The notes under the pieces: generated by a model
Database searches by the model: none
What the model was told of the DNA's origin: nothing
The model's input: the letters and a program-made list of their open reading frames with translations, nothing else
Part shown: positions 9,569 through 52,500 of the stretch, piece after piece
How the letters are laid out: each line of letters begins with the position of its first letter
How positions within the stretch are numbered: position 1 is the stretch's first letter
Program-made: the position numbers and the translations under genes
Assembly: GCA_021770755.1 (NCBI GenBank)
Contig: JAETQI010000001.1
Span: 1 to 64,000 of the forward strand
Source: Lachnospiraceae bacterium
GTDB lineage: Bacteria; Bacillota; Clostridia; Lachnospirales; Lachnospiraceae
Direction: 5' to 3'
Length of the DNA: 64,000 bases

Positions 9569-9605
9569 TAAAGCAAAGTGAGATGGTTCACTTTGCTTTA
9601 TTTAT
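9569..9605 (+). terminator. Intrinsic terminator of the Ter operon
   Basis: A perfect 13-bp stem (TAAAGCAAAGTGA / TCACTTTGCTTTA, 9569-9581 and 9588-9600) with a 6-base loop, then TTTAT. The dispersed structured repeat begins at its T-tract. Confidence 0.85.
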
Positions 9606-9840
9606 GCACACGGGCGTCCAGAGGAAGATTGTCAGCATGCGCTGACGGACGCCCGGCGCGCGAGTAGGGAAAGTCTTCCCTACTCGATTGTACACGGGCA
9701 CCCAGAGGAAGATTGTCAGCATGCGCTGACGGACGCCCGGCGCGCGAGTAGGGAAAGTCTTCCCTACTCGATTGTACACGGGCACCCAGAGGAAGATTGT
9801 CAGCATGCGCTGACGAACGCCCGGCGCACGAGTAGATGGC
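9601..9840 (+). repeat. Three tandem 84-bp copies of a dispersed structured element
   Basis: The unit recurs with cacggg starting at 9609, 9693 and 9777, an exact 84-bp period. Copy 1 folds as stem P1 CGGGCGTCC/GGACGCCCG (611-619, 647-655), an unpaired AGAGGAAGATT, inner stem GTCAGC/GCTGAC with ATGC loop, linker GCGCG, and hairpin P3 CGAGTAGGGAA/TTCCCTACTCG (9661-9671, 9676-9686). In copies 2 and 3 the left arm reads CGGGCACCC. Copy 3 lacks P3. Related elements occur after other terminators at 20.1, 33.0, 33.16 and 52.4 kb. Confidence 0.85.
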
Positions 9841-9871
9841 AATACAGAAGTTTTGACGTGGAGGGATAGAT

Positions 9872-10693
9872 ATGATCGTATTTCACACAGACCTGGATAA
9901 TACACTGATCTATTCTTATAAACATGATATTGGGAGAGATAAGCGCTGTGTCGAAGTATATCATGGGCAGGAATTGTCGTTTATCACACAGGAGACGCAC
10001 CGTCTTCTGCATAAGCTTTCAAAATGGAAACAACAGGTGCTGATCGTGCCGACGACGACCCGGACGACAGAGCAGTATCTGCGGATCGATCTGGGGGTGG
10101 GCGGCTTTCCGTATGCACTTGTCTGCAACGGCGGGGTGCTTCTTGCGGCTGGTACGGATGATGATATTGCTGCTGGCAATGCGGTTGTCAGGGAAGATGA
10201 AAAGTGGTATAGAGACTCTCTGGAAATGATCCAGGACAGCATGGGTGAACTGCACAGGGCAATGAAGCTTCTGGACCAGGAGCCCCGCAGAACTTTCGAG
10301 CTGCGCTTTATCAGGGATCTGTTTGTATTTACAAAGTGTAAGGATTCCGGGACAGTTGTCAGTGATCTGAAAAAGGTTCTCGATGCAGAGGTGGTGGATG
10401 TATTTAGCAAAGGTGCGAAAGTGTATGTTGTGCCCCGGGTATTGAGCAAAGGAAATGCGGTTTCCAGGTTTCGGAAATATATCGGCGCCGGTTATGTGAT
10501 CGCGGCGGGTGATGGTGAATTTGATGTTTCCATGCTGGAGGCTGCCGATCTGGGGCTTGCGCCGGCGGAGCTTGTACAGCGCTGTCAATTCCCGGAAAAG
10601 GTAAGGGCGCTCCCGGCAGAAAGACATTATGCGGAGGCGGTGCTCAGTACAGTTCTCGAAGTGACCTCAAAAAACTGTAAGGAAATAAGGTGA
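9872..10693 (+). CDS. HAD superfamily phosphatase of the Ter region
   Basis: 273 residues. The first catalytic motif is HTDLDNTLIYS (DxDNT type, near the N-terminus), then a TTTR motif 2 and a late AAGDGEFDVSML motif 4, as in Cof-type and sucrose-phosphatase-like HAD enzymes. It probably hydrolyses a small phosphorylated metabolite in the cytosol; the substrate cannot be told. HAD phosphatases are part of the proposed Ter-associated biosynthetic module, so its place next to YceG/TelA/TerD is meaningful. GGAGG lies before the ATG. The Ter operon terminator and the repeat array separate it from the upstream genes. Confidence 0.8.
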   Translation: MIVFHTDLDNTLIYSYKHDIGRDKRCVEVYHGQELSFITQETHRLLHKLSKWKQQVLIVPTTTRTTEQYLRIDLGVGGFPYALVCNGGVLLAAGTDDDIAAGNAVVREDEKWYRDSLEMIQDSMGELHRAMKLLDQEPRRTFELRFIRDLFVFTKCKDSGTVVSDLKKVLDAEVVDVFSKGAKVYVVPRVLSKGNAVSRFRKYIGAGYVIAAGDGEFDVSMLEAADLGLAPAELVQRCQFPEKVRALPAERHYAEAVLSTVLEVTSKNCKEIR

Positions 10694-10704
10694 TACCCTG
10701 CGCG

Positions 10705-10772
10705 TCGGGTAGAGGAAGATGGCGCTTTTCTACCCGATCGCATAGGGACACCAAAGGAAAAATGTCTGGTTA
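10705..10772. terminator. Hairpin between convergent genes, with decayed repeat fragment
   Basis: TCGGGTAGA/TCTACCCGA (10705-10713, 10729-10737) forms a 9-bp stem between the HAD and GH32 genes. There is no long T-tract. It is followed by a fragment of the dispersed element (GGAAAAATGTC near 10756-10766). It could end transcription from both sides. Confidence 0.45.
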
Positions 10773-12329
10773 TTATACAATGAATTCGTACAGCTTTGAC
10801 GAATCGATCCGGGCTGTGGATTCCAGTGAGAATTTTTTCCCCAGTATGTTCTCTTCCGTCTCAACGGCTCCGTAAAGGACGCCGCCATTTCCGAAAAATT
10901 CGATCACTTCCTGGTCGATGACAAGATCTAGGGTAAGCGATTCGTCCGGGTCAAATGGAACGGTGATCGTCTCGGAATAAACCTGCGGGTTGACAAATGA
11001 AATATTTCTGCTGCCAAAGTCAACGGTGATCGCTGTGTCTCCGATCCGCATTGCAGTCAGTCCGGTTTCCTGCGCTTTCCAGCGAAGTGATATCTCTGCG
11101 GGTCTGCCGCACAGGCAGGTCTCATAGGGGCTTTCGTTTTCTGTCAGTGTGCGGCAAAGCTGCCTGCATGCCAGCAGTTCTTCTGGCAGGCGAAAACGCA
11201 TTTTGTAGCTGTCATGATGCCTTACCAGCGACAGCTCTGCCGGGATCGACATGGCACACCTGTAGTTGCCCCGGTCATTGCTGAGCCTGAGCCACGCGAC
11301 GCTGACTGTCCTGCCCTCAATGCCTGCATATGTCTGGGCGGCATAGGGCAGTTTGGTACAGTATGAGGATAATACCGCCGATTCCGGTGTAAAACGATAA
11401 CCGTCAAAACTGCCGACCTGATAATAGCCGTCGGCTGCCCAGAGCACCCACTTTCTTCCTGATGCCGACTGATCGACGGGCAATTCAAATAAGTCGGGGC
11501 ACTCCTGCATTTTTTCTGCGCAATACCGCTGTGTCTCTTCCCAGTGGAGCAGATCTGCGGAGCGGAATATCGCAAATTCGTATCCGTCAAGGTAAAGGAT
11601 CATGATATAGGCGCCGCTGTCCTTGTGGTAGAATACTTTTGGATCGCGGTTGGTTCCGGCAAGGTGCGGGATGATGGTCTGGTCTGTCCGCTGCAGGGTC
11701 TCACCGCCGTCAGTGGAGACTGCCAGCCGTTGCGTGTGCTGCCCGCCGGTTTCAGCGGACCACTGATTGCACCCGCCGGCGGCAGTATAGAAGAAAAGCA
11801 GTGCATCTTTGCCAAATCCGGCAGCGTTGTCCCTGTCCTGCCAGCCGCAGCCGGAATAGACCGTGCCGTACTGGTCGGGATCCATCACTGCAGGCTTGTG
11901 CTCCCAGTGGATCAGATCGCGGCTTGCGGCGTGTCCCCAGTGCATGTTCCCCCAGATCACACCGTATGGATTCCACTGGTAATAGAGATGGTAGACACCG
12001 TCTGCAAAGACAAGGCCGTTGGGGTCATTGTGCCAGCCAAATTCCGGTGCAAAATGGATCTGCGGGCGGAAAGGATAGACATTCTGTACTTTTTCTTTGT
12101 AACAGAAAATGTTGGAGAGCAGATCCTCGGGGATCTCGCTTCTGATCTCGATATCCCTGTCAAGATAGGTGCTCACGTCCATGGCGGTATAGAAATCGCC
12201 GTCTGTTCCGCCCAGTTGAATATCGATCTCCTGAAATTTTGTGTGACCGCAATAAAAATGAAGCTTTACTTCCGGATTCTTTTTGTTTACGGGCATCCAT
12301 AAATAAGGTTCTGTTATGTGTAAGATCAT
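10773..12329 (-). CDS. Glycoside hydrolase family 32 (levanase/sucrose-6-phosphate hydrolase type)
   Basis: 518 residues without a signal peptide, so cytosolic. About 90 N-terminal residues form an extra region before the five-bladed propeller. The three GH32 motifs are present: WHNDPNG with nucleophile Asp102, RDPKVF with the stabilising Asp near 229, and ECPDLFELP with acid/base Glu276. A beta-sandwich tail follows. It should hydrolyse beta-fructosides such as sucrose, sucrose-6-phosphate or fructo-oligosaccharides. GGAGG precedes the ATG. It lies 18 bp behind the AIM24 gene on the same strand, an unusual partner for TerD and AIM24. No transporter or kinase gene for sugar uptake is nearby. 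Confidence 0.92.
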   Translation of the reverse strand: MILHITEPYLWMPVNKKNPEVKLHFYCGHTKFQEIDIQLGGTDGDFYTAMDVSTYLDRDIEIRSEIPEDLLSNIFCYKEKVQNVYPFRPQIHFAPEFGWHNDPNGLVFADGVYHLYYQWNPYGVIWGNMHWGHAASRDLIHWEHKPAVMDPDQYGTVYSGCGWQDRDNAAGFGKDALLFFYTAAGGCNQWSAETGGQHTQRLAVSTDGGETLQRTDQTIIPHLAGTNRDPKVFYHKDSGAYIMILYLDGYEFAIFRSADLLHWEETQRYCAEKMQECPDLFELPVDQSASGRKWVLWAADGYYQVGSFDGYRFTPESAVLSSYCTKLPYAAQTYAGIEGRTVSVAWLRLSNDRGNYRCAMSIPAELSLVRHHDSYKMRFRLPEELLACRQLCRTLTENESPYETCLCGRPAEISLRWKAQETGLTAMRIGDTAITVDFGSRNISFVNPQVYSETITVPFDPDESLTLDLVIDQEVIEFFGNGGVLYGAVETEENILGKKFSLESTARIDSSKLYEFIV

Positions 12330-12347
12330 TTTCTTTCCTCCAACGTT

Positions 12348-13079
12348 TTAATTCGGTCTGTGTCCGAGACTGCCGCCGTCCATGCCCAGATTGATGCCGC
12401 TTGCACGCTCGTTTGGCTGGATAATGACTGTCACAGGCTGGTGGGGATTCCATTCAAAGCTATAGGATTCCCCAGATGCCTGACCGATAAAGGTCTTCCA
12501 GTTCACGTCCATCTTGACGTCCGGGTCGCAGTAGCCGTTTCCCATCCAGCACACGACAGCGTCGGGGTCGACGGCGAGCGTCGTACCCGTCTGGATATTG
12601 CTCAGCACGATCGGATTTCCGTCGATCAGGATCGCGACATAGGCATTGGGACCTTCGCCTGTCAGGGTCGAGGTGGCAAGACCTTTCTGGGAGATGACGC
12701 CGCAGCCGATAAAGCGCACATCGTACTTGCAGTCCGGGGTGAATGCCAGGATATTTTCGGACTCGATCGAGAGGACCTCTCCGGGCTGGAGCTGGTACAC
12801 GACCACGTGCTGCGCGTGGTTTGCATAGTATGTAACGCTGTCCCCGTTCATCATGACTTTCATGAGGGGAAGATTCTCGCCTGTCACACGGCGCATGAGG
12901 GAACCCAGCAGTGCCTGCCCCACACTTTGCTGGGGACCAAGCAGCAGCTTTTCAAATTTATAGTTTTTCTGCCCGCCGTTCTCGCCGCAGATAAAAGAGC
13001 CTGCTTTTGTGAACAGCACGTCGCTTCCGCGGCAGGTCACTTTCAGGGTTAATTCATTGATCACTTCAAATGTCAACAT
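12348..13079 (-). CDS. AIM24 family protein
   Basis: 243 residues, beginning MLTFEVINELTLKV after AAGGAG. The glycine-rich, beta-strand-rich sequence (VVYQLQPGEVLSIES, CDPDVKMDVNWKTF) matches the AIM24/TIGR00266 family, whose bacterial members have no firm biochemical role and whose yeast namesake is mitochondrial. AIM24 proteins often neighbour TerD-type genes, as here, where it sits 43 bp behind the TerD fusion gene. No membrane segment. The start at 13079 is chosen by its ribosome site; an upstream extension would run towards the TerD stop. Confidence 0.8.
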   Translation of the reverse strand: MLTFEVINELTLKVTCRGSDVLFTKAGSFICGENGGQKNYKFEKLLLGPQQSVGQALLGSLMRRVTGENLPLMKVMMNGDSVTYYANHAQHVVVYQLQPGEVLSIESENILAFTPDCKYDVRFIGCGVISQKGLATSTLTGEGPNAYVAILIDGNPIVLSNIQTGTTLAVDPDAVVCWMGNGYCDPDVKMDVNWKTFIGQASGESYSFEWNPHQPVTVIIQPNERASGINLGMDGGSLGHRPN

Positions 13080-13122
13080 CGGTAGATACTCCTTTTTGTT
13101 TCGGCTATTGATTAACAGTTCC

Positions 13123-14046
13123 TTAGACAACCTGCACGCCGTACAGTTCACACAGTCCTGCGAGGTCTCTGGCGACGCCGTTCCCGACGGCGCTGAATTT
13201 CCAGGCGCCGTTGTGCAGGTAGAGCTCGCCGATCATCATGGATATGATATTGTTGTAGTATTCGGTTATCAGAAAGCTCACAAGTTCTTTGCCGGAGCTG
13301 TCCATAATGCGGATGTAGGCGTCTTTCAGCATGCCGAAATGAAGCCTGTTTTCCAGCGCATCGTTGATGGTCAGGACGAAGACGATCTTTTTTACCTGCG
13401 GGTTCAGACGCGAGAGATCGATCTGGATCATTTCGCGGTCCGCACTGCCGCCCTCCATAAACCGGGTGCTTTTGTCCGGGCTGAAAGTCTGGCCATAGAA
13501 CACGAACCAGGAATCGCCGATGACCTTTCCGTCCGCACCGAGGAGAAATGCCGACACGTCGACATCGCACCGCGCATCGGTGACATTCCAGCCAAAACGG
13601 GCTTCCACTGCAGTCAGCGCGTCTGCTGACAGGTGTGTTTTCTGTCCTTTCTGCACTTTGTTCACAAGCGACGGGACAGGTCTGGCGGCAGGCATGCCGG
13701 GCGTGCTCGCAGTATTCTGCTGCCCCGCGGTCAGGGCGGGCTGAATGTTCTGCGGCTGACGGGGCGGTCTGCCTTGCGCCTGTCCGTAAGACGGCTGCGG
13801 CGCTCTGCCCTGCTGTCCGGAGGGCGTCTGTGCGAATGACGGCTGACTGCCGGGCATCTGTCGCGGCGGCGTCTGCTGAGTCCGGCTGTGCGGGGAGTGA
13901 GTCCCGATGGTTTGGGTGCCGCCGGTATTTTTGATCAATGTCATGATATTGCCCTGGTTTTTGACGCACTGTGTCTGCGTCCTGTTGATCGATAAGATCG
14001 AGTCGCGGTTCATGGCACCAGTTGATTTTGTTGCTGCGTTGATCAT
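13123..14046 (-). CDS. TerD domain protein with long Pro/Gln-rich N-terminal tail
   Basis: 307 residues. Residues about 1-130 are disordered, rich in Gln, Pro, Thr and Arg (for example TPPRQMPGSQPS). From about 130 to the end is a TerD domain with KGQKTHLS, RFGWNV, CDVDVSAFLL and a FGMLKDAYIRI segment. GDDE is replaced by SADREMI, so the second acidic site is weaker than in the plus-strand paralogues. GGAGG precedes the ATG at 14046. It leads a minus-strand operon with AIM24 and GH32. The tail resembles in composition, not sequence, the tail of the protease at 283. Confidence 0.85.
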   Translation of the reverse strand: MINAATKSTGAMNRDSILSINRTQTQCVKNQGNIMTLIKNTGGTQTIGTHSPHSRTQQTPPRQMPGSQPSFAQTPSGQQGRAPQPSYGQAQGRPPRQPQNIQPALTAGQQNTASTPGMPAARPVPSLVNKVQKGQKTHLSADALTAVEARFGWNVTDARCDVDVSAFLLGADGKVIGDSWFVFYGQTFSPDKSTRFMEGGSADREMIQIDLSRLNPQVKKIVFVLTINDALENRLHFGMLKDAYIRIMDSSGKELVSFLITEYYNNIISMMIGELYLHNGAWKFSAVGNGVARDLAGLCELYGVQVV

Positions 14047-14325
14047 GATGATCCTCCGTTTGGAAATAAATGAGAATGATTTGTATTTTCTATGCGATTA
14101 TTATAGCACAATCAAGTGGTGTGTACATTAAATTTGCATTAAAAAGATAAACTGAGGTTTTATGCACACGTTGTCCAGAGGAAAAATGTATTGTATTAAT
14201 TTATGAATTATGATATCCTACCAGTGTCAGGACACACGATCCAAAGGATATCGCGCCGGACTGGTATAGGACAGGCGCGGGTTATGGATAATAAGTAGCA
14301 GTAGAAAACAGTTTGGGAGGAATTT
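14047..14325. other. Divergent intergenic region with a repeat fragment
   Basis: About 280 bp between the divergent TerD-fusion and Na/Pi genes, expected to hold both promoters. Bases 14158-14189 match the left end of the dispersed element (TTTTATGCACAC then CCAGAGGAAAAATG), without its stems. Bases 14216-14270 hold an imperfect inverted repeat around CCTACCAGT and ACTGGTATAGG. No ORF with support. Confidence 0.5.
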
Positions 14326-16104
14326 ATGGATTTTTTTGATTTGCTGACAATGGTAGGCGGTCTTGCATTATTTTTATATGGAATGCACCTGCTCAGCGAG
14401 GGACTTGAGAAGCTGTCGGGCGGACGGCTCGAGCGGGTGCTTGAGAACCTGACGAACAACAGGATCAAGGCGGTGCTTTTGGGCGCAGGGGTGACGGCGG
14501 TGATCCAGTCCTCGTCTGCGACCACGGTCATGGTCGTCGGTTTTGTCAACTCGGGGATCATGAAGCTCTCGCAGGCGATCGGTATCATCATGGGCGCCAA
14601 TGTCGGAACGACGATCACGTCCTGGCTGCTGAGTCTGACCGGGATCGAGAGCGACAACTTTTTGCTGCAGCTTGTCAAGCCGACATCGTTCTCGCCGGTG
14701 CTTGCCGTGATCGGCGTGATCTTTATATTGAAAAACGGCAGGAAGCGTGATCTTGGTTCGATCCTGGTCGGATTTGCCATCCTGATGACAGGGATGGATA
14801 CGATGTCTTCTGCGATGAAGCCGCTGAGTCAGGTTCCGTGGTTCACGGGGCTTTTCACGATGTTTACCAACCCGCTGCTGGGACTGCTCGTGGGAGCGCT
14901 GCTCACGGCTGTGATCCAGTCCTCGTCTGCGTCGGTCGGTATCCTGCAGGCGCTGTGTGCGACGGGAAGCATCAGCTATGCGGCGGCGGTGCCGATCATT
15001 CTCGGTCAGAATATCGGTACCTGTGTCACAGCGATGATGTCCGGTGTCGGTGCGAGCAAAAATGCAAGGCGCGCCTCCATTGTCCATCTGCTGTTCAATG
15101 TGATAGGCACAGCGATCTTTTTGACTGTATTTTATGTGCTGCACGCGTTTATCGATTTTGAATTTATGCAGAATGCGGCGGACAGCGCCGGGATCGCCCT
15201 GGTGCATACCGGATTTAATGTGGCAGCGACCCTGATCCTGTTTCCGTTTGCGGATTATCTGGAAAAACTGTCCTTTATCCTCATCAGGCCCGACGAGGAG
15301 GAAGAGCGGCAGGCGCGGGAAAACGAACTGTTTGCCAAGATGGACGAGCGCTTTCTGGGCACGCCGTCCTTTGCCTTGGAGCAGGCGTTCTCCTACACGC
15401 TCAAGATGGCGGAGATCACCGAAGAGTCCCTGAATAAGGCGACCTACAACCTGTTTGCGTACGACAAGAAGACTGCGGCGGAGGTTGAGCAGATGGAGAG
15501 CCTCGTGGATCGCTATGACGATGAGATCAGCGGGTATCTGGTGAAGCTCTCCAGCAGAAATCTGAGCGAGCAGGATTCGCGCAGGCTCAATATGCTCCAG
15601 CACAGTGTGGGGGATCTGGAGCGGATCGGGGATCATGCGATGAACCTGGTGGACTGTGCAAAGTCGATGAACAAGAAGGAACAGTCTTTCTCGGACAAGG
15701 CGACAGAGGAGCTGCAGGTGTTCTCGCAGGCAGTCAGGGATATCGTCAGCGCGTCGGTGTCCGTCTTTGCGTCGGAGGACGAGCAGGCGGCAAGGCTGAT
15801 CGAACCCTTTGAGGAGGCGATCGATATCCTGCAGAAAGAGATGAAGAAGCGGCACATGAAACGCCTGAGAAAAGGAAAGTGTACGGCGGAGATGGGCTTT
15901 GTCCTCTCGGATATCACCAACAATTTTGAGCGGATCGCGGATCACTGCTCGAATCTTGCGATCAATATCATGCAGCTACGCGAGGACGACACGCATGCGC
16001 ACGAGTATGTTGACAGTATCGAAAAGGGTGAGGGAACAGAGTTTGACAGGACTTTGCAGGAACATTTGCGGCGCTATGAGCTCCCGGGAAAGGCGGCGAA
16101 GTAG
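14326..16104 (+). CDS. Na+/phosphate cotransporter family protein with PhoU-like tail
   Basis: 592 residues. Residues about 1-320 form two Na/Pi cotransporter repeats, each with the hallmark QSSSA motif (VIQSSSATTVMVVGF and VIQSSSASVGILQAL) and several hydrophobic helices. The C-terminal 220 residues are helical and PhoU-like. It should move phosphate with sodium across the membrane, with the PhoU-like domain regulating flux. Start ATG follows GGGAGGAATTT. It appears monocistronic: a divergent gene lies upstream and a perfect terminator follows. Confidence 0.92.
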   Translation: MDFFDLLTMVGGLALFLYGMHLLSEGLEKLSGGRLERVLENLTNNRIKAVLLGAGVTAVIQSSSATTVMVVGFVNSGIMKLSQAIGIIMGANVGTTITSWLLSLTGIESDNFLLQLVKPTSFSPVLAVIGVIFILKNGRKRDLGSILVGFAILMTGMDTMSSAMKPLSQVPWFTGLFTMFTNPLLGLLVGALLTAVIQSSSASVGILQALCATGSISYAAAVPIILGQNIGTCVTAMMSGVGASKNARRASIVHLLFNVIGTAIFLTVFYVLHAFIDFEFMQNAADSAGIALVHTGFNVAATLILFPFADYLEKLSFILIRPDEEEERQARENELFAKMDERFLGTPSFALEQAFSYTLKMAEITEESLNKATYNLFAYDKKTAAEVEQMESLVDRYDDEISGYLVKLSSRNLSEQDSRRLNMLQHSVGDLERIGDHAMNLVDCAKSMNKKEQSFSDKATEELQVFSQAVRDIVSASVSVFASEDEQAARLIEPFEEAIDILQKEMKKRHMKRLRKGKCTAEMGFVLSDITNNFERIADHCSNLAINIMQLREDDTHAHEYVDSIEKGEGTEFDRTLQEHLRRYELPGKAAK

Positions 16105-16131
16105 GTCAAATAAGACTGAAAATCGTGAAAT

Positions 16132-16180
16132 ATAACAACGAATTTTAGTAAATTGCACAAAATTCGTTGTTATAGCATAT
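16132..16180 (+). terminator. Intrinsic terminator after the Na/Pi gene
   Basis: Perfect 15-bp arms ATAACAACGAATTTT (16132-16146) and AAAATTCGTTGTTAT (16159-16173), loop of 12. The T-run is displaced a few bases downstream (16180-16184), so efficiency may be modest. Confidence 0.65.
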
Positions 16181-16185
16181 TTTTG

Positions 16186-16214
16186 TTGTGCTGGAAAAAA
16201 AATTAAATTATAAT
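16186..16214 (+). promoter_or_regulatory. Promoter of gdhA
   Basis: TTGTGC at 16186-16191, 17-bp spacer, TATAAT at 16209-16214. The ATG of gdhA is 83 bp downstream, leaving a leader of roughly 75 bases with no recognisable riboswitch. Confidence 0.6.
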
Positions 16215-16293
16215 ATATTCGTTGAGTTTAGCGCATTACAGTGTTGAAACAATGATCATAAAAACAGATTTTTTCAAATCTAAGGAGGAATAA

Positions 16294-17652
<1,359 letters not shown>

Positions 17653-18094: not shown

Positions 18095-18302
18095 ATATTT
18101 GCACCATCCTTTCGAACGTAGTATGTGCAGGGCGGGGAAAAGTATGCAGATCGCCCTGAAAGTATCAGAATCTGTATAAAGATATATTCCTTTTTGTACG
18201 ATATAGTTTATATACATAATAATGTGCCCGTTTTGCGATGCACGGAAGCGGTATCATATTCGCAGGCGGGGGATCGTTGTCTGAATCAGGGAGGATGATG
18301 GC

Positions 18303-20105: not shown

Positions 20106-20197
20106 ATGCGCAGACCCGTGCAGAGGAAATATGCCGCCAGTGCGGCGCGCGGTTATTCCCGCAAGTGAGAATTCCGGCGGGATCATGGTGTAGCGCA
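20101..20197 (+). repeat. Divergent copy of the terminator-linked structured element
   Basis: After TTTTTATGCGCA comes a left P1 arm (ACCCGTGC), AGAGGAAATAT, inner hairpin GCCGC/GCGGC with CAGT loop, right P1 arm GCGCGGTT (7 of 8 pairs) and a further imperfect hairpin built from ATTCCCGC and GCGGGAT. The layout matches the 9.6 kb copies although stem sequences differ. The rest of this 362-bp gap (20198-20397) holds no ORF that I can support; a stretch near 20196-20250 faintly resembles a tRNA 3' half but does not fold as one. Confidence 0.6.
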
Positions 20198-32979: not shown

Positions 32980-32982
32980 CGT

Positions 32983-33022
32983 ATTATACTGGCGGTCGAA
33001 AAGACTGACCGCTCAGTATAAT
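32983..33022 (+). terminator. Hairpin after spoVG
   Basis: ATACTGGCGGTC pairs with GACCGCTCAGTAT (one bulge) around the loop GAAAAGACT. No T-tract follows; the structured element starts within 10 bases. Confidence 0.5.
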
Positions 33023-33027
33023 GTGAT

Positions 33028-33116
33028 GCGCACAGCCGCATAAGGAAATATGCCACTTCGTGGCTGCGGCTGGCGCGATACTCACGGCAGATTTCATCTG
33101 TCGTGAGTATATTTTA
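33028..33116 (+). repeat. Structured element, copy with wholly different stem sequences
   Basis: GCGCAC, P1 AGCCGCA/TGCGGCT (33034-33040, 33065-33071), unpaired TAAGGAAATAT (33041-33051), P2 GCCAC/GTGGC with TTC loop (33052-33064), linker GGCGCG (33072-33077), P3 ATACTCACGGCAGAT/ATCTGTCGTGAGTAT (33078-33092, 33096-33110), then ATTTTAT. The order of parts, the GGAAATAT loop and the GGCGCG linker equal the 9.6 kb copies, while all three stems differ in sequence yet pair. Confidence 0.75.
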
Positions 33117-33160: not shown

Positions 33161-33206
33161 ATGCACACGGGCACCCAGAAGAAAATTGGCGCTTCCCTAC
33201 TCGGTT
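33157..33206 (+). repeat. Truncated copy of the terminator-linked element
   Basis: TTTTATGCACACGGGCACCC then AGAAGAAAATTGGCGC and TTCCCTACTCGG: the left end and the P3 right arm are kept and the middle is deleted. It begins in the T-tract of the terminator and runs into the end of the XRE gene. Confidence 0.6.
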
Positions 33207-33964
33207 TTCTCATCGTCGGAGCTGAATGCGAGATTGCGAATGTCCTGTCCGCTCAGAAACGGAAGAAAGGCGTTGATGGATCCGCCCTTTTCGAGCGTTC
33301 TGCAGGCATATATACGCACATCTTTCTTATCCAGAAACGGAAGAAAGGCGTTGATGGATCCGCCCTTTTCGAGCATTTTGTCTGCAAACATGCGGATATT
33401 TTTCTTGCCTAGAAACGGAAAGAAAGCGTTGATGGATCCGCCTTTTTCAAAGATCCTGTCAGCAAGCTCCGTGACGTCCGCCTTATGCATAAAAGGAAGA
33501 TATCTGTTGACAGACTGTCCGTCTTCAAAGGCTTTGAAGGCAAGCTCTTTCACGTCACTTTCATCCAGGTAGGGCAGGAGTACAGATATATTGATGTTGT
33601 GCTTCGCGGATCTGAGCAGGTCGGAGTCCTTCACGATCGTCTCCACCTGGGAAGGCTTGAGCAGGGGAAGGGTGCTGTCAAGCTCCTCCTCAGAGATGTT
33701 GTTCTGCGCGATGCACTCGACAAGTTCGTCGTTGACAGCCGCCTCGATGAGTACGGCGTTCTCCCCGATCAGTTCGTCGATGGAAATGTCGAAGATCGCG
33801 GCAAGCTCGGGGAGCTTGCTGATGTCGGGCATGCTGTTGCCCCTCTCCCAGTTGGAGACAGCCTGATAGCTGATGGCAAGCCGGTCGGCAAGTTCGACCT
33901 GGGTCATGTTGTGCTCCTTTCTCAGCGCACATATTTTCTTTCCAATTTTTGTCATGTTAAACAT
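33197..33964 (-). CDS. XRE-family regulator with five tandem 26-residue repeats
   Basis: 255 residues. Residues about 5-65 are a Cro/C1 helix-turn-helix (MTQVELADRLAISYQAVSNWE). After a linker come five repeats of about 26 residues with the pattern LPFLxKKDVRxxADRxLEKGGSINAF. At DNA level the repeats recur every 78 bp (33254, 33332, 33410, 33488), and the first three are near-identical, so expansion is recent. The repeats resemble short alpha-hairpin units that may bind protein or ligand. ATG 33964 has AAAGGA at 8-bp spacing. The C-terminus overlaps the dispersed element. Target genes are unknown; the divergent pth operon is one candidate. Confidence 0.85.
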   Translation of the reverse strand: MFNMTKIGKKICALRKEHNMTQVELADRLAISYQAVSNWERGNSMPDISKLPELAAIFDISIDELIGENAVLIEAAVNDELVECIAQNNISEEELDSTLPLLKPSQVETIVKDSDLLRSAKHNINISVLLPYLDESDVKELAFKAFEDGQSVNRYLPFMHKADVTELADRIFEKGGSINAFFPFLGKKNIRMFADKMLEKGGSINAFLPFLDKKDVRIYACRTLEKGGSINAFLPFLSGQDIRNLAFSSDDEKTE

Positions 33965-34140
33965 AGTCTTCATCCTTTCTGTGTGGTTAATGCTCCTTAA
34001 GATATTTTTATTGTAACAGAATTGTCCCAAAAGTCTATCAAGTTGTGATTGAGCGGATTTTAAAATGCTTAAATAGTTGTCAGAATATGATGGGGTGTGA
34101 ATTGTGACACTCAAGGAGCGGTTGAGGAGGAAAAAAGTTG

Positions 34141-34168
34141 TTGTTAATTTGCGCATATTTGTTATAAT
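34141..34168 (+). promoter_or_regulatory. Promoter upstream of the DUF6472/pth genes
   Basis: TTGTTA (34141-34146), 16-bp spacer, TATAAT (34163-34168). A strong intrinsic terminator lies only about 45 bp after the expected start site, before the first gene. Confidence 0.6.
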
Positions 34169-34221
34169 GATATTATGGATTGTATTATATCCCTGAAAAG
34201 TCACAAACGATTATAGAAAAG

Positions 34222-44502: not shown

Positions 44503-44510
44503 ATAGTACA

Positions 44511-44544
44511 AAAGAAAAAGGACATCACATTGTCCTTTTTCTTT
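44511..44544. terminator. Bidirectional terminator between chemoreceptor and spoVT
   Basis: AAAGAAAAAGGACA/TGTCCTTTTTCTTT, a perfect 14-bp stem with 6-base loop; T-rich and A-rich arms suit both convergent genes. Confidence 0.9.
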
Positions 44545-44550
44545 TATCGG

Positions 44551-45099: not shown

Positions 45100-45197
45100 C
45101 GATATTTCCTCCATTCTGGGTACTTATTAGCAAGTTCATAAAAAAGCTTAACTGTATTGCTAGTATTTGTATATAATGGATTTTTATGCATAGTTCG

Positions 45198-46592: not shown

Positions 46593-46792
46593 AATATCAT
46601 CGCCCTTCTGTCACCGTCTCAACAGTCCCTCTAACAACACACTTCCTTTCAGTGTCATTGACATTGTTTCATGATTCTTTCCTTATTCTATGCCGATTCG
46701 CCAGGATTGTCAAGGCTTTGACAATCTGTATCCTTTGCACTTCTTTGGAGGAAAATGCATATGATAATCATAAAAAGTGAGGAACTCGAAAT

Positions 46793-47248
46793 ATGGATTA
46801 TTATAGCGCTTTTCCTTTTTATATGGGGTATCAGGGTTACGGACAGTGGGCGCAGCCAGGGATCGTGCCGGAGGACAGGATACTCGAGGACCTTGAGTAC
46901 CTGCAGCAGATGTATCCTACATATGCCAGAAAATATCAGAACACGATCGGCAGCGTTGTCGACAAGATGGATTACGACGGAAGCTTTATCTATGACCAGT
47001 ATCCGGATAAGCTGACGCTCCAGCGGATGGTGGAGAGTGTCATGGCGGTCATCAAAACGAATGAGGAGGCTGCGGCGCAGCCGGATGTGGCGGGCAGCGA
47101 TGCAGTGGACAATGCGCTCACGGAACGCGCTCCGTGGCACGAGAAGGAGCCATGGATCAGGGAGCTTGTCACGGTACTGATGTACTATGAGATACTGGCA
47201 CGCAGAAGAAAGAGAAGTAAAGGATTAAAAAAGTATGAATTTTATTGA
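46793..47248 (+). CDS. Unknown 151-residue protein
   Basis: It starts MDYYSAFPFYMGYQGYGQW, Tyr/Phe/Gly-rich, and continues as mostly helical (EDLEYLQQMYPTYARKYQ), ending with a basic tail RRRKRSKGLKK. No signal peptide or membrane helix. GAGGAACTC precedes the ATG. The aromatic N-terminus recalls spore-coat or surface-associated proteins, but this is a weak hint. The SRP RNA promoter starts inside its last codons. Family not recognised. Confidence 0.7.
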   Translation: MDYYSAFPFYMGYQGYGQWAQPGIVPEDRILEDLEYLQQMYPTYARKYQNTIGSVVDKMDYDGSFIYDQYPDKLTLQRMVESVMAVIKTNEEAAAQPDVAGSDAVDNALTERAPWHEKEPWIRELVTVLMYYEILARRRKRSKGLKKYEFY

Positions 47249-47274
47249 CTTATCGATCGATATGCGGTTATAAT
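47245..47274 (+). promoter_or_regulatory. Promoter of the SRP RNA gene
   Basis: TTGACT (47245-47250), 18-bp spacer, TATAAT (47269-47274); the RNA is expected to start 7 bases downstream at 47281. Confidence 0.75.
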
Positions 47275-47280
47275 AATAAC

Positions 47281-47545
47281 ATCGTGCAGCCGGGGCGTTA
47301 GCGGTGTCCTGTACCCACAATCCGCTATAGTGGGGGTGATAAGCGACCGAGGGTCTGCGTTTGTATAGCTGCCCTCTATAAGTGGCGTTGAAGTTTGGGT
47401 CTCGCGCAATATGTGCCGTTGAACCGTGTCAGGGCAGGAATGCAGCAGCACTAAGGCGGATTTCGTATGTGCCGCGAGGGTGCCTGGCGGAGTTAACTGT
47501 AGAGGTAACGTGTATGGGCATAGGATTCGAAGCCGCTTGCACGAT
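47281..47545 (+). ncRNA. ffs: Signal recognition particle RNA, long Bacillus type
   Basis: About 265 bases, with ends that pair (ATCGTGCA at 47281-47288 and TGCACGAT at 47538-47545). The SRP domain loop is seen as GTCAGGGCAGGAATGCAGCAG near 47428-47448, variant of the GGAAG tetraloop helix that binds Ffh. The large size means that an Alu-like 5' domain is present, as in Bacillus scRNA. Promoter directly upstream. Confidence 0.9.
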
Positions 47546-47638
47546 AAAATGTTGTATAATCAGAACAAAAAATGGAAAACTAATGACGAAGAATAGTGGC
47601 ACAGCATGTCAGAACGATCTGTGCTAAAGGGAGACATT

Positions 47639-48802
47639 ATGAAAAGAAAGAGTATCAAAAATAAGGGACTTGCTTTACTGCTTGTAGTCACGATGGCGGC
47701 CGCTTCCATGACAGCGTGCGGCAATAAGGAGGATTCGGCAAAAGAACCTGCGACTGAGATCGATTTTGCAGACCTCACAGGCGGCGGTTCGGACAACAGC
47801 GCCAACGACGCGCCGGAGACGCCCGATGTGGAGGAATCTTCCACAGAGCCGGTGACGGAGGAGGAGTCGCGCGAGGGCATGTACCGCAGCGAGATCACAA
47901 ATGAGTGGATCGATGAGAGCTTAAAGAACCAGCGTCCCATCGCGGTCATGGTCGACAACGAGAAGACAGCGCTTCCGCACTATGGTCTCACGGAGGCGGA
48001 TGTGGTGTATGAGATCATGAACAGTACGGCAAACGGCAGGATCACGCGATTCATGGCGATCGTCAAGGACTGGGGGAAGATCGCACAGTTTGGCAGCATC
48101 CGAAGCACGAGGCCGACCAATATCATGCTGGCTGCAGAGTGGAATGCAGTGCTCTGCCACGACGGTGGTCCTTTCTATATCAATGACTGGATCGCAAAGA
48201 AGTATTCGGCAAATTTCAGCGGTGGATTTTCCCGTGTGAACAACGGCAAGTCGAGAGAGTTTACAGAATATATCTGCACAGGGGATCTGGACAGCAAGTT
48301 CAGCAATTCGAAGTATTCCACCGAGTACAACGAGTACTATCAGGGACAGCACTACAATTTCTCCAACTCGGAGATCGACCTGTCCACAGTGGGCACCACG
48401 ATCGACTGCACAGAGATCGAGCTCCCGTTCCCGCACAACAGTTCAAGGCTGCAGTACAACGAGTCGACAGGCACGTACGATTACTATGAGTACGGTCAGG
48501 CGCACACAGATCCGCAGCACGGCAATGCGCAGCTTACGTTCAAGAATCTGCTGATCCAGGACACGACATTTTCACAGCTTGACGAGAATGGATACATGAT
48601 CTACAATGCGATCGACTCCGGGCGTGACGCGTATTACATTACGAACGGCAAGGCGATGGAGGTAACATGGATCAAGCCGGCGGAGAACGAGATCACGATT
48701 TATCTGAACAAGCAGACCGGAGAACAGATCGAGCTGAACACAGGTAAGACGTATGTGGCGCTTGTTCCGTCAGATTCATGGGGCAAAGTGGTCATCAAAT
48801 AA
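47639..48802 (+). CDS. DUF3048 domain lipoprotein
   Basis: 387 residues. A lipoprotein signal peptide (MKRKSIKNKGLALLLVV) ends at the lipobox MTAC, with the lipid Cys near residue 26. An acidic Glu/Thr linker follows, then the DUF3048 domain (RPIAVMVDNE, YEIMNSTANGRITRF, FGSIRSTRP). This family resembles YerB of Bacillus and its role is not established. It should be anchored outside the membrane. AAAGGGAG precedes the ATG at 47639. Monocistronic, with a terminator following. Confidence 0.9.
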   Translation: MKRKSIKNKGLALLLVVTMAAASMTACGNKEDSAKEPATEIDFADLTGGGSDNSANDAPETPDVEESSTEPVTEEESREGMYRSEITNEWIDESLKNQRPIAVMVDNEKTALPHYGLTEADVVYEIMNSTANGRITRFMAIVKDWGKIAQFGSIRSTRPTNIMLAAEWNAVLCHDGGPFYINDWIAKKYSANFSGGFSRVNNGKSREFTEYICTGDLDSKFSNSKYSTEYNEYYQGQHYNFSNSEIDLSTVGTTIDCTEIELPFPHNSSRLQYNESTGTYDYYEYGQAHTDPQHGNAQLTFKNLLIQDTTFSQLDENGYMIYNAIDSGRDAYYITNGKAMEVTWIKPAENEITIYLNKQTGEQIELNTGKTYVALVPSDSWGKVVIK

Positions 48803-48811
48803 ATGTGAGGA

Positions 48812-48839
48812 AAAGAGGTGTGTACGCATCTCTTTTTTT
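48812..48839 (+). terminator. Terminator after the DUF3048 gene
   Basis: AAAGAGGTG/CGCATCTCTTT stem with TGTA loop (one G-U, slight offset), followed by TTTTTTC. Confidence 0.7.
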
Positions 48840-48980
48840 CGTAAGATTTCGTTATTATAACTAAAAAGCGATTGCGAAAATTTACGAAATTTCCAATAGC
48901 TTTTTGTACCATGAGAGGGTATAATAAAACCATCAAGAGAGATTCTGAAATGAAAGAAAATCGAATGGAGGATGACAGTT

Positions 48981-50987
48981 ATGGGAAAGAAGCAGCAGGC
49001 ATACGACAAATCAATGGAACGGTACGAGGGGACAGGCGCATTTGATGAGGCTTTTGCATATGACGGAAAAGATCTGGGTGCGGTTTACACAAAGGAAAAG
49101 ACGGGGTTTAAGGTGTGGGCGCCCACGGCGTCTGAGGTTTCACTAAATCTGTACGAGCAGGGAGACGGGGACAATCTCACGGAGACGATCCCGATGACAA
49201 TGGGCGAGAGGGGCGTGTGGTCCTGCGAGAAACAGGGTGATCTGAACGGCGTGTATTATACGTATCTGGTCAGGATCGGGTCAAAGACCAGCGAGGCGGT
49301 GGATCTCTATGCGAGGACGACCGGCGTGAACGGCAACAGGGGCATGGTCGTGGATCTGCGCGCGACGGATCCGGAAGGATTTGACAAGGACACAAGGCCG
49401 GCGCTTGTCAATCCCACTGATGCGGTGATCTATGAACTCCACGTGAGGGATCTGTCGTCAGATGCGTCGTCGGGGATCGTCAACACAGGCAAATTCCTCG
49501 GACTTACCGAGACGGGAACGACCAATGCGGACGGACTTGCGACAGGCATTGACCATATCAGGGATCTGGGTGTGACACATGTGCAGATCCTTCCGAGTTA
49601 TGACTACGCCACGGTAGATGAGGCAAAGCTCGATACACCGCAGTTTAACTGGGGATACGATCCGAAAAATTACAACGTGCCGGAGGGCTCTTACAGCACG
49701 GATCCTTATCATGGGGAGGTGCGCATCAACGAGATGAAGCGGATGGTGCAGGCGCTTCACCGGAACGGGCTCCGTGTGAACATGGATGTGGTGTATAACC
49801 ATACATTCAATATCGAAGATTCCTACTTTCAGAAGACAGTACCCGATTATTATTACAGAAAAGTGGGCGGGCGTTATTCCGACGCGTCTGCCTGCGGAAA
49901 TGAGACGGCTTCCGACCATGCGATGATGCGCAAATATATCGTGGATTCCGTTGTATACTGGGCTACGGAGTACCATATTGACGGATTCCGCTTTGACCTG
50001 ATGGCAGTGCATGATATCGAGACGATGAAAGCAGTCCGCGCGGCGCTCGACGAGGTTGACCCTTCGATCATGGTGTACGGCGAGGGCTGGACTGGCGGGG
50101 ACTGCGCGATCCCTTCCTCAGAGCAGGCGCTGAAAGAAAACATGGCAAGGATCGACGGGGTTGGCGCTTTCAGCGATGATATCAGGGATGGGATCAAGGG
50201 CAGCGTGTTTGAAGCGCAGGATCAGGGATTTATCAGCGGCAAGGACGGAATGGAGGAGAGCATCAGGTTTGGCATAGTCGGCGCGACACCGCATCCGCAG
50301 GTGCCGGCCTGCAGGAACGATAAAGTTACCAGGAGCTGGGCGGCGCAGCCGGGGCAGAGCATCAACTATATCTCGTGCCATGACAACCTGACATTCTGGG
50401 ATAAGCTTGCCATATCCAATGCGGATGACAGCGAGGAGACAAGGATCAGGATGAACAAGCTCGGCAGTGCGATCATCCTGACCTCGCAGGGAGTTCCGTT
50501 CTTCCAGGCGGGTGAGGAGATGCTCAGGAGCAAGCCTTCGGCGACAGTGGAGGGCGGATTTGATGAGAACAGCTACGCGTCGCCGGATTCGACGAACAGC
50601 ATCAAGTGGTTGGAAAAAGCAAAGGTGCTGGACACATATGAATATTACAAGGGACTGATCGCATTCCGCAAGGCGCACAGTGCACTGCGCATGGCGGAGA
50701 CGGCGGACATACAGCGCAATCTGACTTTCATGGGCGGGCTGGATGCCAATGTGGTCGGATATACGATCGAAAACCACGCAAACGGCGACACGGCGGAGAA
50801 GATCACGGTGATCTTCAATGGAAATGCGGATGCGGCCATTGTACCGCTGCCGGCGGGCACATGGGAGATCTGTGTCAACGACAAGACGGCAGGGACAGCG
50901 TCTGTCGGCACGGCGGAGGGAACGGTGTCTGTGGCAGGCATCTCTGCGTTGGTGCTCGTGCAGGGGACGGATGCTGTTGAAAAATAA
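48981..50987 (+). CDS. pulA: Type I pullulanase (GH13)
   Basis: 668 residues without a signal peptide, so cytosolic. A CBM48-type domain (GFKVWAPTASEVSL) precedes the GH13 barrel. The type I marker is FNWGYDPKNY. Catalytic motifs: VVYNHTF, DGFRFDLM (nucleophile Asp), YGEGW (acid Glu), SCHDNLTFWD. It debranches alpha-1,6 links in glycogen or imported maltodextrins, fitting the glgCD genes at 30 kb. GGAGG precedes ATG 48981, and TATAAT at 48920 is a probable -10. The Nudix gene follows after 15 bp. Confidence 0.95.
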   Translation: MGKKQQAYDKSMERYEGTGAFDEAFAYDGKDLGAVYTKEKTGFKVWAPTASEVSLNLYEQGDGDNLTETIPMTMGERGVWSCEKQGDLNGVYYTYLVRIGSKTSEAVDLYARTTGVNGNRGMVVDLRATDPEGFDKDTRPALVNPTDAVIYELHVRDLSSDASSGIVNTGKFLGLTETGTTNADGLATGIDHIRDLGVTHVQILPSYDYATVDEAKLDTPQFNWGYDPKNYNVPEGSYSTDPYHGEVRINEMKRMVQALHRNGLRVNMDVVYNHTFNIEDSYFQKTVPDYYYRKVGGRYSDASACGNETASDHAMMRKYIVDSVVYWATEYHIDGFRFDLMAVHDIETMKAVRAALDEVDPSIMVYGEGWTGGDCAIPSSEQALKENMARIDGVGAFSDDIRDGIKGSVFEAQDQGFISGKDGMEESIRFGIVGATPHPQVPACRNDKVTRSWAAQPGQSINYISCHDNLTFWDKLAISNADDSEETRIRMNKLGSAIILTSQGVPFFQAGEEMLRSKPSATVEGGFDENSYASPDSTNSIKWLEKAKVLDTYEYYKGLIAFRKAHSALRMAETADIQRNLTFMGGLDANVVGYTIENHANGDTAEKITVIFNGNADAAIVPLPAGTWEICVNDKTAGTASVGTAEGTVSVAGISALVLVQGTDAVEK

Positions 50988-51002
50988 GGAGGAAGCTGTA
51001 AG

Positions 51003-51428
51003 ATGGCAGTGAATTTTTATGAGGAAGTGGACGATGCCCTGCTGAGATTTGCAGTGATCGTTGCAAAGACAGAGGGGAAATACGTATTTTGCAAGCACAG
51101 ACTGAGAGATACGCTGGAGGTTCCGGGGGGACACCGGGAGCCGGGGGAGGCGATCCTGGACACGGCGAGAAGAGAACTGTATGAGGAGACCGGGGCGGTT
51201 GACTTTGATATCTGGCCGGTCTGCGTCTATTCTGTGATCGCTGAGGACAATTTTGACGGGCAGGAATCTTTTGGTATGCTGTACTTCGCGCAGATCAGGG
51301 CGTTTGAACCGGAGCTTCACAGTGAGATCGAGAGGATCATCGTGACGGACGAGATGCCATCAGACTGGACATATCCCGATATCCAGCCGAAGCTGCTGGA
51401 GGAGCTTCAAAGGAGAAACATTATGTAA
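51003..51428 (+). CDS. Nudix hydrolase
   Basis: 141 residues. A full Nudix box spans residues 42-64 (GGHREPGE, then RRELYEETG), with the metal-binding Glu residues present. Such enzymes hydrolyse nucleoside diphosphates linked to another group; which one cannot be told. AAGGAGG precedes the ATG. It follows pulA closely and is probably co-transcribed with it. A substrate such as ADP-glucose would fit the neighbour, but that is speculation. Confidence 0.92.
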   Translation: MAVNFYEEVDDALLRFAVIVAKTEGKYVFCKHRLRDTLEVPGGHREPGEAILDTARRELYEETGAVDFDIWPVCVYSVIAEDNFDGQESFGMLYFAQIRAFEPELHSEIERIIVTDEMPSDWTYPDIQPKLLEELQRRNIM

Positions 51429-51549
51429 CAATTCGGCCTTCGGCTTCCTGTTACAGGCATCAAGCCATGCCAAACCGCTTCGCGATGGGCTTGACGCTTC
51501 TCAACCACTGCGTGTTCTTACGGACATTGAAGTGCTGTGCAGACATGCT

Positions 51550-51715
51550 CTAGAGCGCGTTTGAAAAATCATTCCCGCCATCTGTACGCCCCACTTTGCG
51601 TGATATTTGCACCGAATTCAGTCAACATAGCCCGCTATGCCTCCTTCATTCAGCACAAATCTCCTACAAACTGTGACGCACATCTGACAGAAAGCATTTT
51701 TCAAACGCGCTCTAG
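51550..51715 (-). mobile_element. 166-bp MITE-like element with 20-bp terminal inverted repeats
   Basis: CTAGAGCGCGTTTGAAAAAT (51550-51569) is exactly inverted at 51696-51715, and both ends are flanked by GCT (51547-51549, 51716-51718), a possible 3-bp target duplication. The two halves can be aligned along their whole length to a CATAGC/GCTATG centre near 51630, so the element is one long imperfect hairpin. It encodes no protein. Class of the mobilising transposase unknown. Confidence 0.7.
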
Positions 51716-51757
51716 GCTGAACTGTAAGTGCATTATAAATTAAATATGCGGATGATG

Positions 51758-51786
51758 TTGACATAGCGCGAAAAATGTTATATGAT
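51758..51786 (+). promoter_or_regulatory. Strong sigma-A-type promoter
   Basis: Consensus TTGACA (51758-51763), 17-bp spacer, TATGAT (51781-51786), about 105 bp before the membrane-protein ATG. Confidence 0.75.
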
Positions 51787-51890
51787 AGCACATGTGCATG
51801 AGTGTATGAAGCAGATATAAACTGTTTTTGGGTCACAAAGCACAATGGTTGTTTATTGAATGTTTGTTCATGATATGAGGAGGGATTAAA

Positions 51891-52361
51891 ATGGACGACA
51901 TAACAGTGTTATTTGCGGTACTCGGAGCATACATTGCAGTGATCCTGGTCATCGCTATCGTAGTTTATGTATTGTCATCACTGGCGCATATGAAAGCGCT
52001 CAAGGCTTTAGGGTACGATAAGGCGTGGATGGCATGGATTCCGTTCGCACAGCAGTATGCACTTGCAGATGCGGCAGCGGACAATCAGGAGAGCGTGCAT
52101 TTGTTTGGTTCTGTCTCAGTGCCAGCGGTTCTGTACAAGTTCTGGTGGGTGTTGTGGATCGTTCTTCCGTTTGTTCCGGTCATCGGTTCTCTTGCATCGA
52201 CAGTTGTGCTGGTGGTCTTCCTTGGAAACTGCTATGTGAAGATCTATGCGAGACTGGATGGAACGACGGAGCAGGAACAGCAGGTGATCGGATACCTTTC
52301 CGGTTTTCTGTCGATCATCGCGATCGTGAAGTTCCTGGCTGGAAAGTACAATACAAAATAA
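51891..52361 (+). CDS. Small multi-pass membrane protein, unknown
   Basis: 156 residues. Hydrophobic helices at about 7-29, 75-92 and 95-115, with possibly a fourth at 136-150. The segment ALGYDKAWMAWIPFAQQY resembles the loop of small DUF5684/signal-peptidase-like membrane proteins of clostridia. No enzyme motif. GAGGAGG precedes the ATG. It has its own consensus promoter and a terminator behind, so it is monocistronic and probably well expressed. Confidence 0.75.
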   Translation: MDDITVLFAVLGAYIAVILVIAIVVYVLSSLAHMKALKALGYDKAWMAWIPFAQQYALADAAADNQESVHLFGSVSVPAVLYKFWWVLWIVLPFVPVIGSLASTVVLVVFLGNCYVKIYARLDGTTEQEQQVIGYLSGFLSIIAIVKFLAGKYNTK

Positions 52362-52383
52362 TAAAGGCTGGAATGCAAAAATG

Positions 52384-52416
52384 GCGGAATGGTCTTGCGG
52401 GACTGTTCCGCTTTTT
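52384..52416 (+). terminator. Terminator after the membrane-protein gene
   Basis: GCGGAA(52384-52389)/TTCCGC(52406-52411) with a further GGTC/GGACT inner pairing, followed by TTTTTAT; the dispersed element starts in the T-tract. Confidence 0.8.
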
Positions 52417-52500
52417 ATGCACACGGGCGTCCAGAGGAAAAATGTCAGCATGCGCTGACGGACGCCCGGCGCGCGAGTAGGGGAAGACCCGTCCAGAGGG
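52412..52500 (+). repeat. Single copy of the terminator-linked structured element
   Basis: TTTTTATGCACA, P1 CGGGCGTCC/GGACGCCCG, loop AGAGGAAAAAT, P2 GTCAGC/GCTGAC, GCGCGCGAGTAGGGG. It is nearly identical to the 9.6 kb copies up to the P3 hairpin, which is shortened here to GGG/CCC. Confidence 0.85.

Follow-up and report, generated by a model that had tools for sequence, protein, structure and literature searches.

Why does a short, structured repeat lie directly behind intrinsic terminators in the genome of a Lachnospiraceae bacterium (assembly GCA_021770755.1)? The first 64,000 nucleotides (nt) of its contig JAETQI010000001.1, here called the window, contain several copies of this repeat, whose unit is about 88 nt long, and an earlier note on this DNA had proposed that it might be either a 3'-end element or small RNA of the upstream gene, or a mobile element that targets terminators. 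The results described here leave little doubt that we are dealing with a mobile element which targets terminators and has a 3' end like that of group IIC introns. As to how it moves, we consider the chances to be about even that the unit is a miniature non-autonomous retroelement, which is mobilised in trans by group IIC-type machinery acting as a putative helper. The match to IIC introns, the insertion rule, the serial mode of insertion and the existence of two subtypes are features that the earlier note had not seen.

A conserved RNA fold and its distribution

From 5' to 3', the unit consists of TGCRCA, the stem P1, the hairpin P2, which is stacked on P1, the letters GCGC and the hairpin P3 with a terminal CCTACTCGAT. 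P1 is a stem of 9 base pairs with an 11-nt bulge on its 5' side only (consensus AGAGGAAAWAT). It is extended by a short basal helix, GC.C with G.GC, which contains an A-C mismatch in most rows; in this region, column 7 is an A in 81 of 81 rows. The 5' end of the unit reads AUGCRCA or UGCRCA, or UAUCGCA in the genomes G065 and G029, and matches are 70 to 105 nt long with a median of 89 nt (67 rows with a GAT-type end). It had been suggested that the stems vary while remaining paired and that selection acts on RNA structure, and both suggestions are borne out. Across 39 copies, 92.6% of the alignment cells are paired, compared with 39-41% after sliding. A covariance model, R1, was built from 39 units (alignment A1), and searches of genomes of the genus and the family with this model found matches in both. 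The relatives comprise 81 matches, 66 of them distinct, with 95.7% of the cells paired; among the 66 distinct relatives, each of the 26 modelled pairs shows at least one two-sided change, and covariation scores 0.555 versus 0.189 for shuffled and less than 0.1 for slid alignments, although the alignment of the 81 matches was fitted to the model and thus leans towards structure. A separate alignment of 40 cores yielded a score of 0.597 versus 0.183. Covariation is strong across genera, and its absence, which the earlier note had named as a refutation, was not observed.

At every place that had been listed before, direct reading of the window showed a copy or a fragment built on a common plan and lying on the + strand:

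9570-9604, + strand: intrinsic terminator hairpin with a T-tract ending in A, the insertion target of the first array (read directly; own terminator scan)
9605-9688, + strand: array unit 1, TGCACA...CTCGAT (read directly; model R1)
9689-9772, + strand: array unit 2
9773-9837, + strand: array unit 3 with a truncated P3 (model R1)
10700-10766, + strand: decayed array, a P3 remnant (10700-10738) followed by the 5' part of the next unit (10739-10766) (read directly)
14163-14189, + strand: 5' fragment of a unit behind a short T-run, where no terminator hairpin was seen (E 0.061)
20107-20153, + strand: GACCCGTGC-type unit with a degenerate right half, immediately behind a terminator (read directly; model R1)
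32982-33025, + strand: hairpin upstream of the subtype-B copy, with which it travels (the copy at C95:93665 has a near-identical hairpin before it)
33026-33116, + strand: subtype-B unit with the common P1/bulge/P2 core, another P3 and no CTACTCGAT end (read directly; model R1)
33162-33206, + strand: internally deleted unit that retains both its 5' and 3' ends, behind a second terminator
52418-52487, + strand: unit behind a terminator, P3 cut (read directly; model R1)

The three units of the array at 9605-9837 are arranged head to tail with a spacing of 84 nt. In a search of 432 kb with R1, the copies at 9604, 52417, 33026, 9772 and 20106 were found at expectation values (E) of 6e-21 to 1e-6, and the match at 10629-10738 is weak (E 0.014). 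The remnants at 33162 and 14163 are not listed by R1 and give weak sequence-profile matches of 15 and 10 bits, respectively. No family of Rfam 15 matches any unit in the window at the gathering score; the sole match is the bacterial large signal recognition particle RNA at 47282-47544 (+).

The copy that the earlier note had placed at 33028, downstream of spoVG (PF04026), shares the core of the common plan, but it belongs to a second type, subtype B, in which a hairpin of its own replaces the T-tract and P3 does not end in CTACTCGAT. Units of this subtype have the same P1/P2 core, a conserved upstream hairpin and a different P3, and are not located behind T-tracts. The source genome contains a second copy at C95:93665, and further copies (L168-L174) were found in G352 and G341, which represent two other genera; core and P3 are letter-identical within G352 (four copies fetched) and within G341 (three fetched). 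Elements of different kinds may share the core as a module, and subtype B is possibly a separate mobile family that has it in common with the other units.

In the source genome, blastn gave 50 matches with 40 of 128 candidates scored, which is a lower bound, and R1 gave at least 139 matches at E <= 0.01 (150 of 2033 candidates scored). These 139 matches merge into at least 116 sites, namely 97 single, 15 double and 4 triple ones. At E <= 0.001, R1 matched 32 of 36 genomes of the genus, including the source genome, and 1 of 24 genomes of the same order outside the family; under strict filters and at E <= 1e-6, it matched 29 of 299 genomes of the family. Loci with a taxonomic name, identified by the pattern of the tandem junction together with R1, include some from Hungatella, Faecalicatena, Dorea, Lachnotalea and unnamed Lachnospiraceae; the junction pattern also matched unrelated phyla, partly via IIC introns and partly by chance. 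Viral contigs contained no match to one exact pattern, and neither plasmids nor phages were matched with one unit each as query. A full-text literature search, which left most subscription journals outside, found no description of the repeat among the papers listed.

Insertion behind terminators

Four fetched copies in G065 (L164-L167) are letter-identical over 91 nt, each of them behind a terminator of its own. Of the three copies fetched from G358, two are identical and one has a single different letter. The frr-uppS region, whose flanking genes encode the ribosome recycling factor and undecaprenyl diphosphate synthase according to Pfam, was compared by eye in 30 genomes of the genus, including the source genome (seven more matching genomes lie outside this comparison). 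Nine of these regions carry a recognisable unit, nine a remnant, eleven are empty and one is unclear. The remnants are truncated or degenerate units with a common start point behind the T-tract, different unit families are present in the occupied regions, and in three of the eleven empty ones the terminator is a different hairpin. Since identical copies occur at different loci and the frr-uppS region is either empty or differently occupied, the repeat is mobile and not a 3' feature of the gene. Of the two earlier proposals, that of a mobile element targeting terminators is thus upheld, also by the tally of targets given below, while that of a 3'-end element or small RNA of the upstream gene had to be rejected, because sister species have no unit at the frr-uppS terminator, and identical copies are found behind different genes. 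As a separate observation, the frr-uppS region of G003 (L368) contains a degenerate unit in which another palindromic sequence, more than 100 nt long, has entered the loop of P3.

The insertion target was determined for 103 units that have no other unit directly before them, subtype B included. At least five T residues within the 8 nt before the junction are present in 83 of these units versus 113 of 2380 control positions, leaving 20 units without a clear T-tract, and a T-tract together with a hairpin, as judged by a simple fold test, precedes 58 of 103 units versus 15 of 2380 controls. The base preceding TGCRCA is an A in 92 of 103 units, whereas an A follows the T-tract in 20 of 69 unoccupied terminators, and the base following the unit is a T at 66 of 69 complete 3' ends. 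These preferences at positions -1 and +1 lead to the insertion rule T-tract-A^T. Internal units of arrays read CTCGAT|TGCRCA at their junctions, as expected if new units enter between A and T. That the empty frr-uppS sites mostly lack the A favours the view that it belongs to the unit rather than to the target.

The arrays themselves were studied by comparing neighbouring cores in 31 arrays, which were entered by hand as adjacent core matches and do not include every array. Of 47 pairs of neighbours, 28 are less than 80% alike, so that most arrays arose by serial insertion at one terminator; tandem duplication was rejected as their main source for this reason. Eight of the 47 pairs are at least 95% alike, and some arrays thus also grow by local duplication. 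At many sites, units have decayed into fragments.

Furthermore, insertion is strand-biased. On four contigs of the source genome (432 kb; own calls of open reading frames (ORFs) and terminators), all 24 sites, two of which are subtype B, lie on the gene-rich, G-rich strand, whereas unoccupied intergenic terminators are distributed 44:34 by strand (Fisher P 1.3e-5). The genes themselves are distributed 266:74 (P 0.007), so that the bias follows gene direction mostly, but not wholly. GC skew is positive in the direction of the unit at 35 of 37 loci of the source genome, and 21 of the 24 sites lie outside called ORFs. The earlier claim that all copies are co-oriented with the upstream gene went too far, as this is the case for only 18 of 24 sites on the four contigs, judged by rough ORF calls. 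According to passages in PMC4424553 and PMC8919778, group IIC introns insert just after intrinsic terminators, and the latter source reports that they favour the lagging-strand template.

An intron-like tail and the question of the helper

P3 and the 3' end of the unit resemble domain VI of IIC introns, GNGNGAG..CCTACTCGAT^T; a domain VI hairpin with the 3' end AY is present in the unit and absent in subtype B. At locus L098 of the source genome, an intron with Rfam matches to domains D1-D4 encodes a reverse transcriptase that scores 431.6 bits as a group II maturase. This intron starts with GTATG after TTTTTTTA and ends with CCCCTACTTGAT, which is immediately followed by TGCGCAGACCCG, the start of a unit. 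Since the intron is situated between TTTTTTTA and the start of a unit, the sequence before its insertion was an occupied unit site, TTTTTTTA^TGCGCAG. Its loop UAAAAAAA can pair with the preceding exon and is, as judged by eye, likely the exon-binding site 1 (EBS1). At a second locus, L225, an intron ends directly before a weaker unit. A model of 31 element P3s alone, R2, was applied to 59 loci, of which 30 have Rfam intron matches and the other 29 encode IIC reverse transcriptases, and gave 16 matches, all of which fall on intron domain VI, 11 in sense and 5 in antisense orientation. Six sense matches have E < 0.02 and five E 0.85-0.9, and one of the antisense matches (L132, E 9.6) lies in an intron of another type. 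The reverse transcriptases of introns with a sense match are 76-91% identical to that of L098 (10 of 11 measured). IIC introns splice mainly by hydrolysis without protein and form lariats with protein, as is reported in PMC7161350. Other Lachnospiraceae repeats (L273, L279, L231 and L280) have different 5' parts and the same CCTACTCGAT end before TGCRCA; they are perhaps members of a larger zoo of miniature elements with an IIC-like tail.

The remaining parts of an intron are missing from the unit. No match to RF00029 or another intron family was found in the window at the gathering score, nor in L002, L012 and L014 up to E 5; P1/P2 is unlike domain V because of its 11-nt 5' bulge, and with about 88 nt and no ORF the unit is too short for a reverse transcriptase or a complete ribozyme. 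With neither domain V nor an ORF nor a bulged branch adenosine, the unit cannot mobilise alone. If it is mobilised by group IIC-type machinery, its RNA would be bound by a group IIC-type ribonucleoprotein via the conserved P1-bulge-P2 core, and the helper ribozyme would take the domain-VI-like 3' end for its own. The helper would join the unit RNA to the terminator T-tract exposed on the lagging-strand template, and the reverse transcriptase would then produce a DNA copy. A broader formulation, for which we see somewhat less than even chances, describes the repeat as a bacterial SINE (short interspersed nuclear element), an RNA of about 88 nt without domain V or ORF that parasitises the group IIC machinery and has spread serially over the terminators of many Lachnospiraceae; in this view, it would have retained no more than a core for binding and a tail resembling domain VI.

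Several observations weigh against a IIC helper, the first of which concern the unit itself. Group II introns start with the consensus GUGYG or a similar sequence, and introns of the L098 type with GTATG, whereas the unit starts with AUGCRCA. Furthermore, no bulged branch A was found in the 67 rows with a GAT-type end of alignment A2: the letter at the branch position is always paired, with an A facing U in 53 rows, a G facing U in 8 and a G facing C in the other 6, so that G occurs in 14 rows. Without domain V, ORF, GUGYG start and bulged branch A, the unit cannot be classified as a group II intron. For pairing of the EBS1 type, the picture is less clear: by eye, no constant loop of the UAAAA type was seen, and the bulge reads AGAGGAAAWAU, or AAAGGUUAU in one genome. 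An A-rich bulge acting as EBS1 on the T-tract was considered and dropped, as one burst genome has GGUUAU in its place, and a common origin of the 5' ends of unit and intron, suggested by ACGGGC in both, was dropped because this sequence is absent from other unit families. The match between P3 and domain VI is also narrow: R2 gave sense matches at only 11 of 59 loci, most IIC introns with distant reverse transcriptases were unmatched, and none of the introns whose reverse transcriptase is 54-58% identical to that of L098 was matched, although these also end with CCTACTCGAT or CTCTACTCGAT where an end was found. R3, a model of the core, matched none of the introns in 67 loci; its matches there consist of the two units that adjoin the L098 intron and a weak one (E 1.6) that begins at the end of the L122 intron and is perhaps a decayed unit. 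Finally, subtype B carries the core without a T-tract target and without the CTACTCGAT end.

The second group of observations concerns the genomes. IIC reverse transcriptases at 1e-60 are present in 5 of 29 element genomes, where 6.5 would be expected by chance, versus 67 of 299 genomes overall, and no RVT_1 match was obtained in G032, which has at least 72 copies. Among 14 element genomes, four have no RVT_1 match, six only matches below the group II maturase cut-off and four (G077, G172, G341 and G358) matches above it. The sub-cut-off enzymes are retron-like, Drt2-like, CRISPR-like or unassigned (19 proteins were classified in all). In G065, which is one of these six and has the letter-identical copies, the score is 117.9 bits versus a cut-off of 300. 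Of the two full-size IIC-type reverse transcriptases in the source genome, one lies near the end of a contig; this genome has at least 139 unit matches versus three RVT_1 matches and one RF00029 match. A resident IIC intron as an obligatory helper is therefore unsupported by co-occurrence, and the counts within the genus do not track each other. Introns can easily be lost from binned assemblies and helpers may vanish after a burst, which is an excuse rather than evidence. Two further reverse transcriptase loci are recorded here for their own sake: at L100 1591-1687, an RT-4 RNA match below the gathering score lies upstream of a reverse transcriptase fragment at the end of a contig of the source genome, and a protein at L321 (G332) joins a CRISPR-associated primase-polymerase part to a reverse transcriptase of group II-like type.

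The same lack of co-occurrence speaks for an alternative in which other machinery, either a single-strand Y1/HUH transposase or some reverse transcriptase of another kind, moves a non-autonomous element whose IIC-like 3' end and target were inherited from an old intron or have converged. We regard this as possible, if on the doubtful side. Ten of the 14 element genomes lack a group II maturase above the cut-off; strand bias, a preferred 5' target letter and the absence of a visible target duplication would fit single-strand transposition, and subtype B with its own hairpins resembles a two-hairpin element. However, Y1_Tnp (PF01797) is absent from G005, G006, G012 and G014 despite at least 31, 50, 49 and 40 element matches, and near-confinement to terminators together with the CTACTCGAT^T end are traits of IIC introns. 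An autonomous relative was not seen either, though no thorough search for one was made. A Y1 transposase was discarded as the mover, since PF01797 does not track copy number. An ordinary derivative of an insertion sequence, that is, a miniature inverted-repeat transposable element, or palindromes of the repetitive extragenic palindromic (REP) type would likewise be small, mostly intergenic, multicopy and partly palindromic; this is improbable, because neither terminal inverted repeats nor a target duplication were seen by eye in the flanks of identical copies and in the frr-uppS region, and REP-type Y1 genes do not track copy number. The earlier note had stated that it would be refuted if the copies were debris of a known insertion sequence; no sign of an insertion sequence was seen, with Y1_Tnp and RVT_1 as the only mobile-element enzymes searched. 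Still less credit can be given to a functional RNA of the host, such as a messenger RNA 3' end, small RNA or processing signal kept behind terminators by selection: the strong compensatory changes and the position behind terminators would suit it, but 11 of 30 species have no unit at the frr-uppS terminator and others carry different families there, letter-identical copies lie at different loci, and units decay at many sites. Dead debris of ordinary IIC introns, 3' ends left by deletion, would explain the domain VI match of the 3' hairpin and is nevertheless very improbable, as none of the tested introns contains a match to the 5' two thirds of the unit, the unit has two fixed ends and covariation along its whole length, and identical copies show that it spreads as a unit.

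Some other features of the window are unrelated to the repeat. Three consecutive ORFs of 193-196 amino acids with mutually repeated DNA (4799-6599) precede a gene for an E1-E2 cation ATPase and may be of the same kind as a TerD-domain gene at 13123-14046 (-). Three direct repeats of 78 nt are located at 33254-33487 within a gene for a helix-turn-helix protein (33197-34204, -).

Comparison with known systems

Surveys that start from domain V or from a reverse transcriptase cannot see this repeat. It accounts for a class of repeats that crowd around terminators and that could lead to errors in the annotation of 3' ends and small RNAs. If mobilisation in trans by IIC machinery is true, the reliance of a reduced intron on a helper, which has been proposed as a step toward the spliceosome, would become testable in a bacterium, and the repeat would provide a parallel, in a free-living bacterium, to the group III introns of Euglena and to the step from self-splicing to trans-dependence.

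The repeat has in common with group IIC introns the insertion behind intrinsic terminators on the T-tract strand, a domain-VI-like hairpin with the 3' end CCTACTCGAT before T, and the bias towards the lagging-strand template; at L098, one intron occupies the very position of a unit. It differs from them in size, about 88 nt versus about 1.9 kb, lacks a match to domains I-V and a reverse transcriptase, begins with AUGCRCA, has a paired branch A and shows, as read by eye, no constant loop that pairs with the T-tract. The group III introns of Euglena chloroplasts, as described in passages of PMC4424553, are about 90-120 nt long, have a domain VI without domain V and are thought to need trans-acting factors. 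The unit is close to them in size (median 89 nt) and in its domain-VI-like P3 without domain V; however, group III introns are spliced and interrupt organellar genes, whereas the units are mostly intergenic and lie behind bacterial terminators.

REP sequences and bacterial interspersed mosaic elements (BIMEs) with their REP-associated tyrosine transposases (RAYTs), and the palindrome-associated derivatives of IS200/IS605, are short, palindromic, intergenic, multicopy and strand-biased, and all of this is equally true of the unit. Unlike REP/BIME with RAYT, the unit has no matching distribution of Y1 genes, and its ends and target are intron-like. In eukaryotes, a SINE is a short structured RNA that shares its 3' end and target habit with a longer element encoding a reverse transcriptase, the long interspersed nuclear element (LINE). 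The unit differs in that it is bacterial, its target is a terminator and its relation to a helper is one that we infer; yet it, too, is a short structured RNA whose 3' end and target habit are common to a longer element, and it would thus stand to the group IIC intron as a SINE stands to a LINE.

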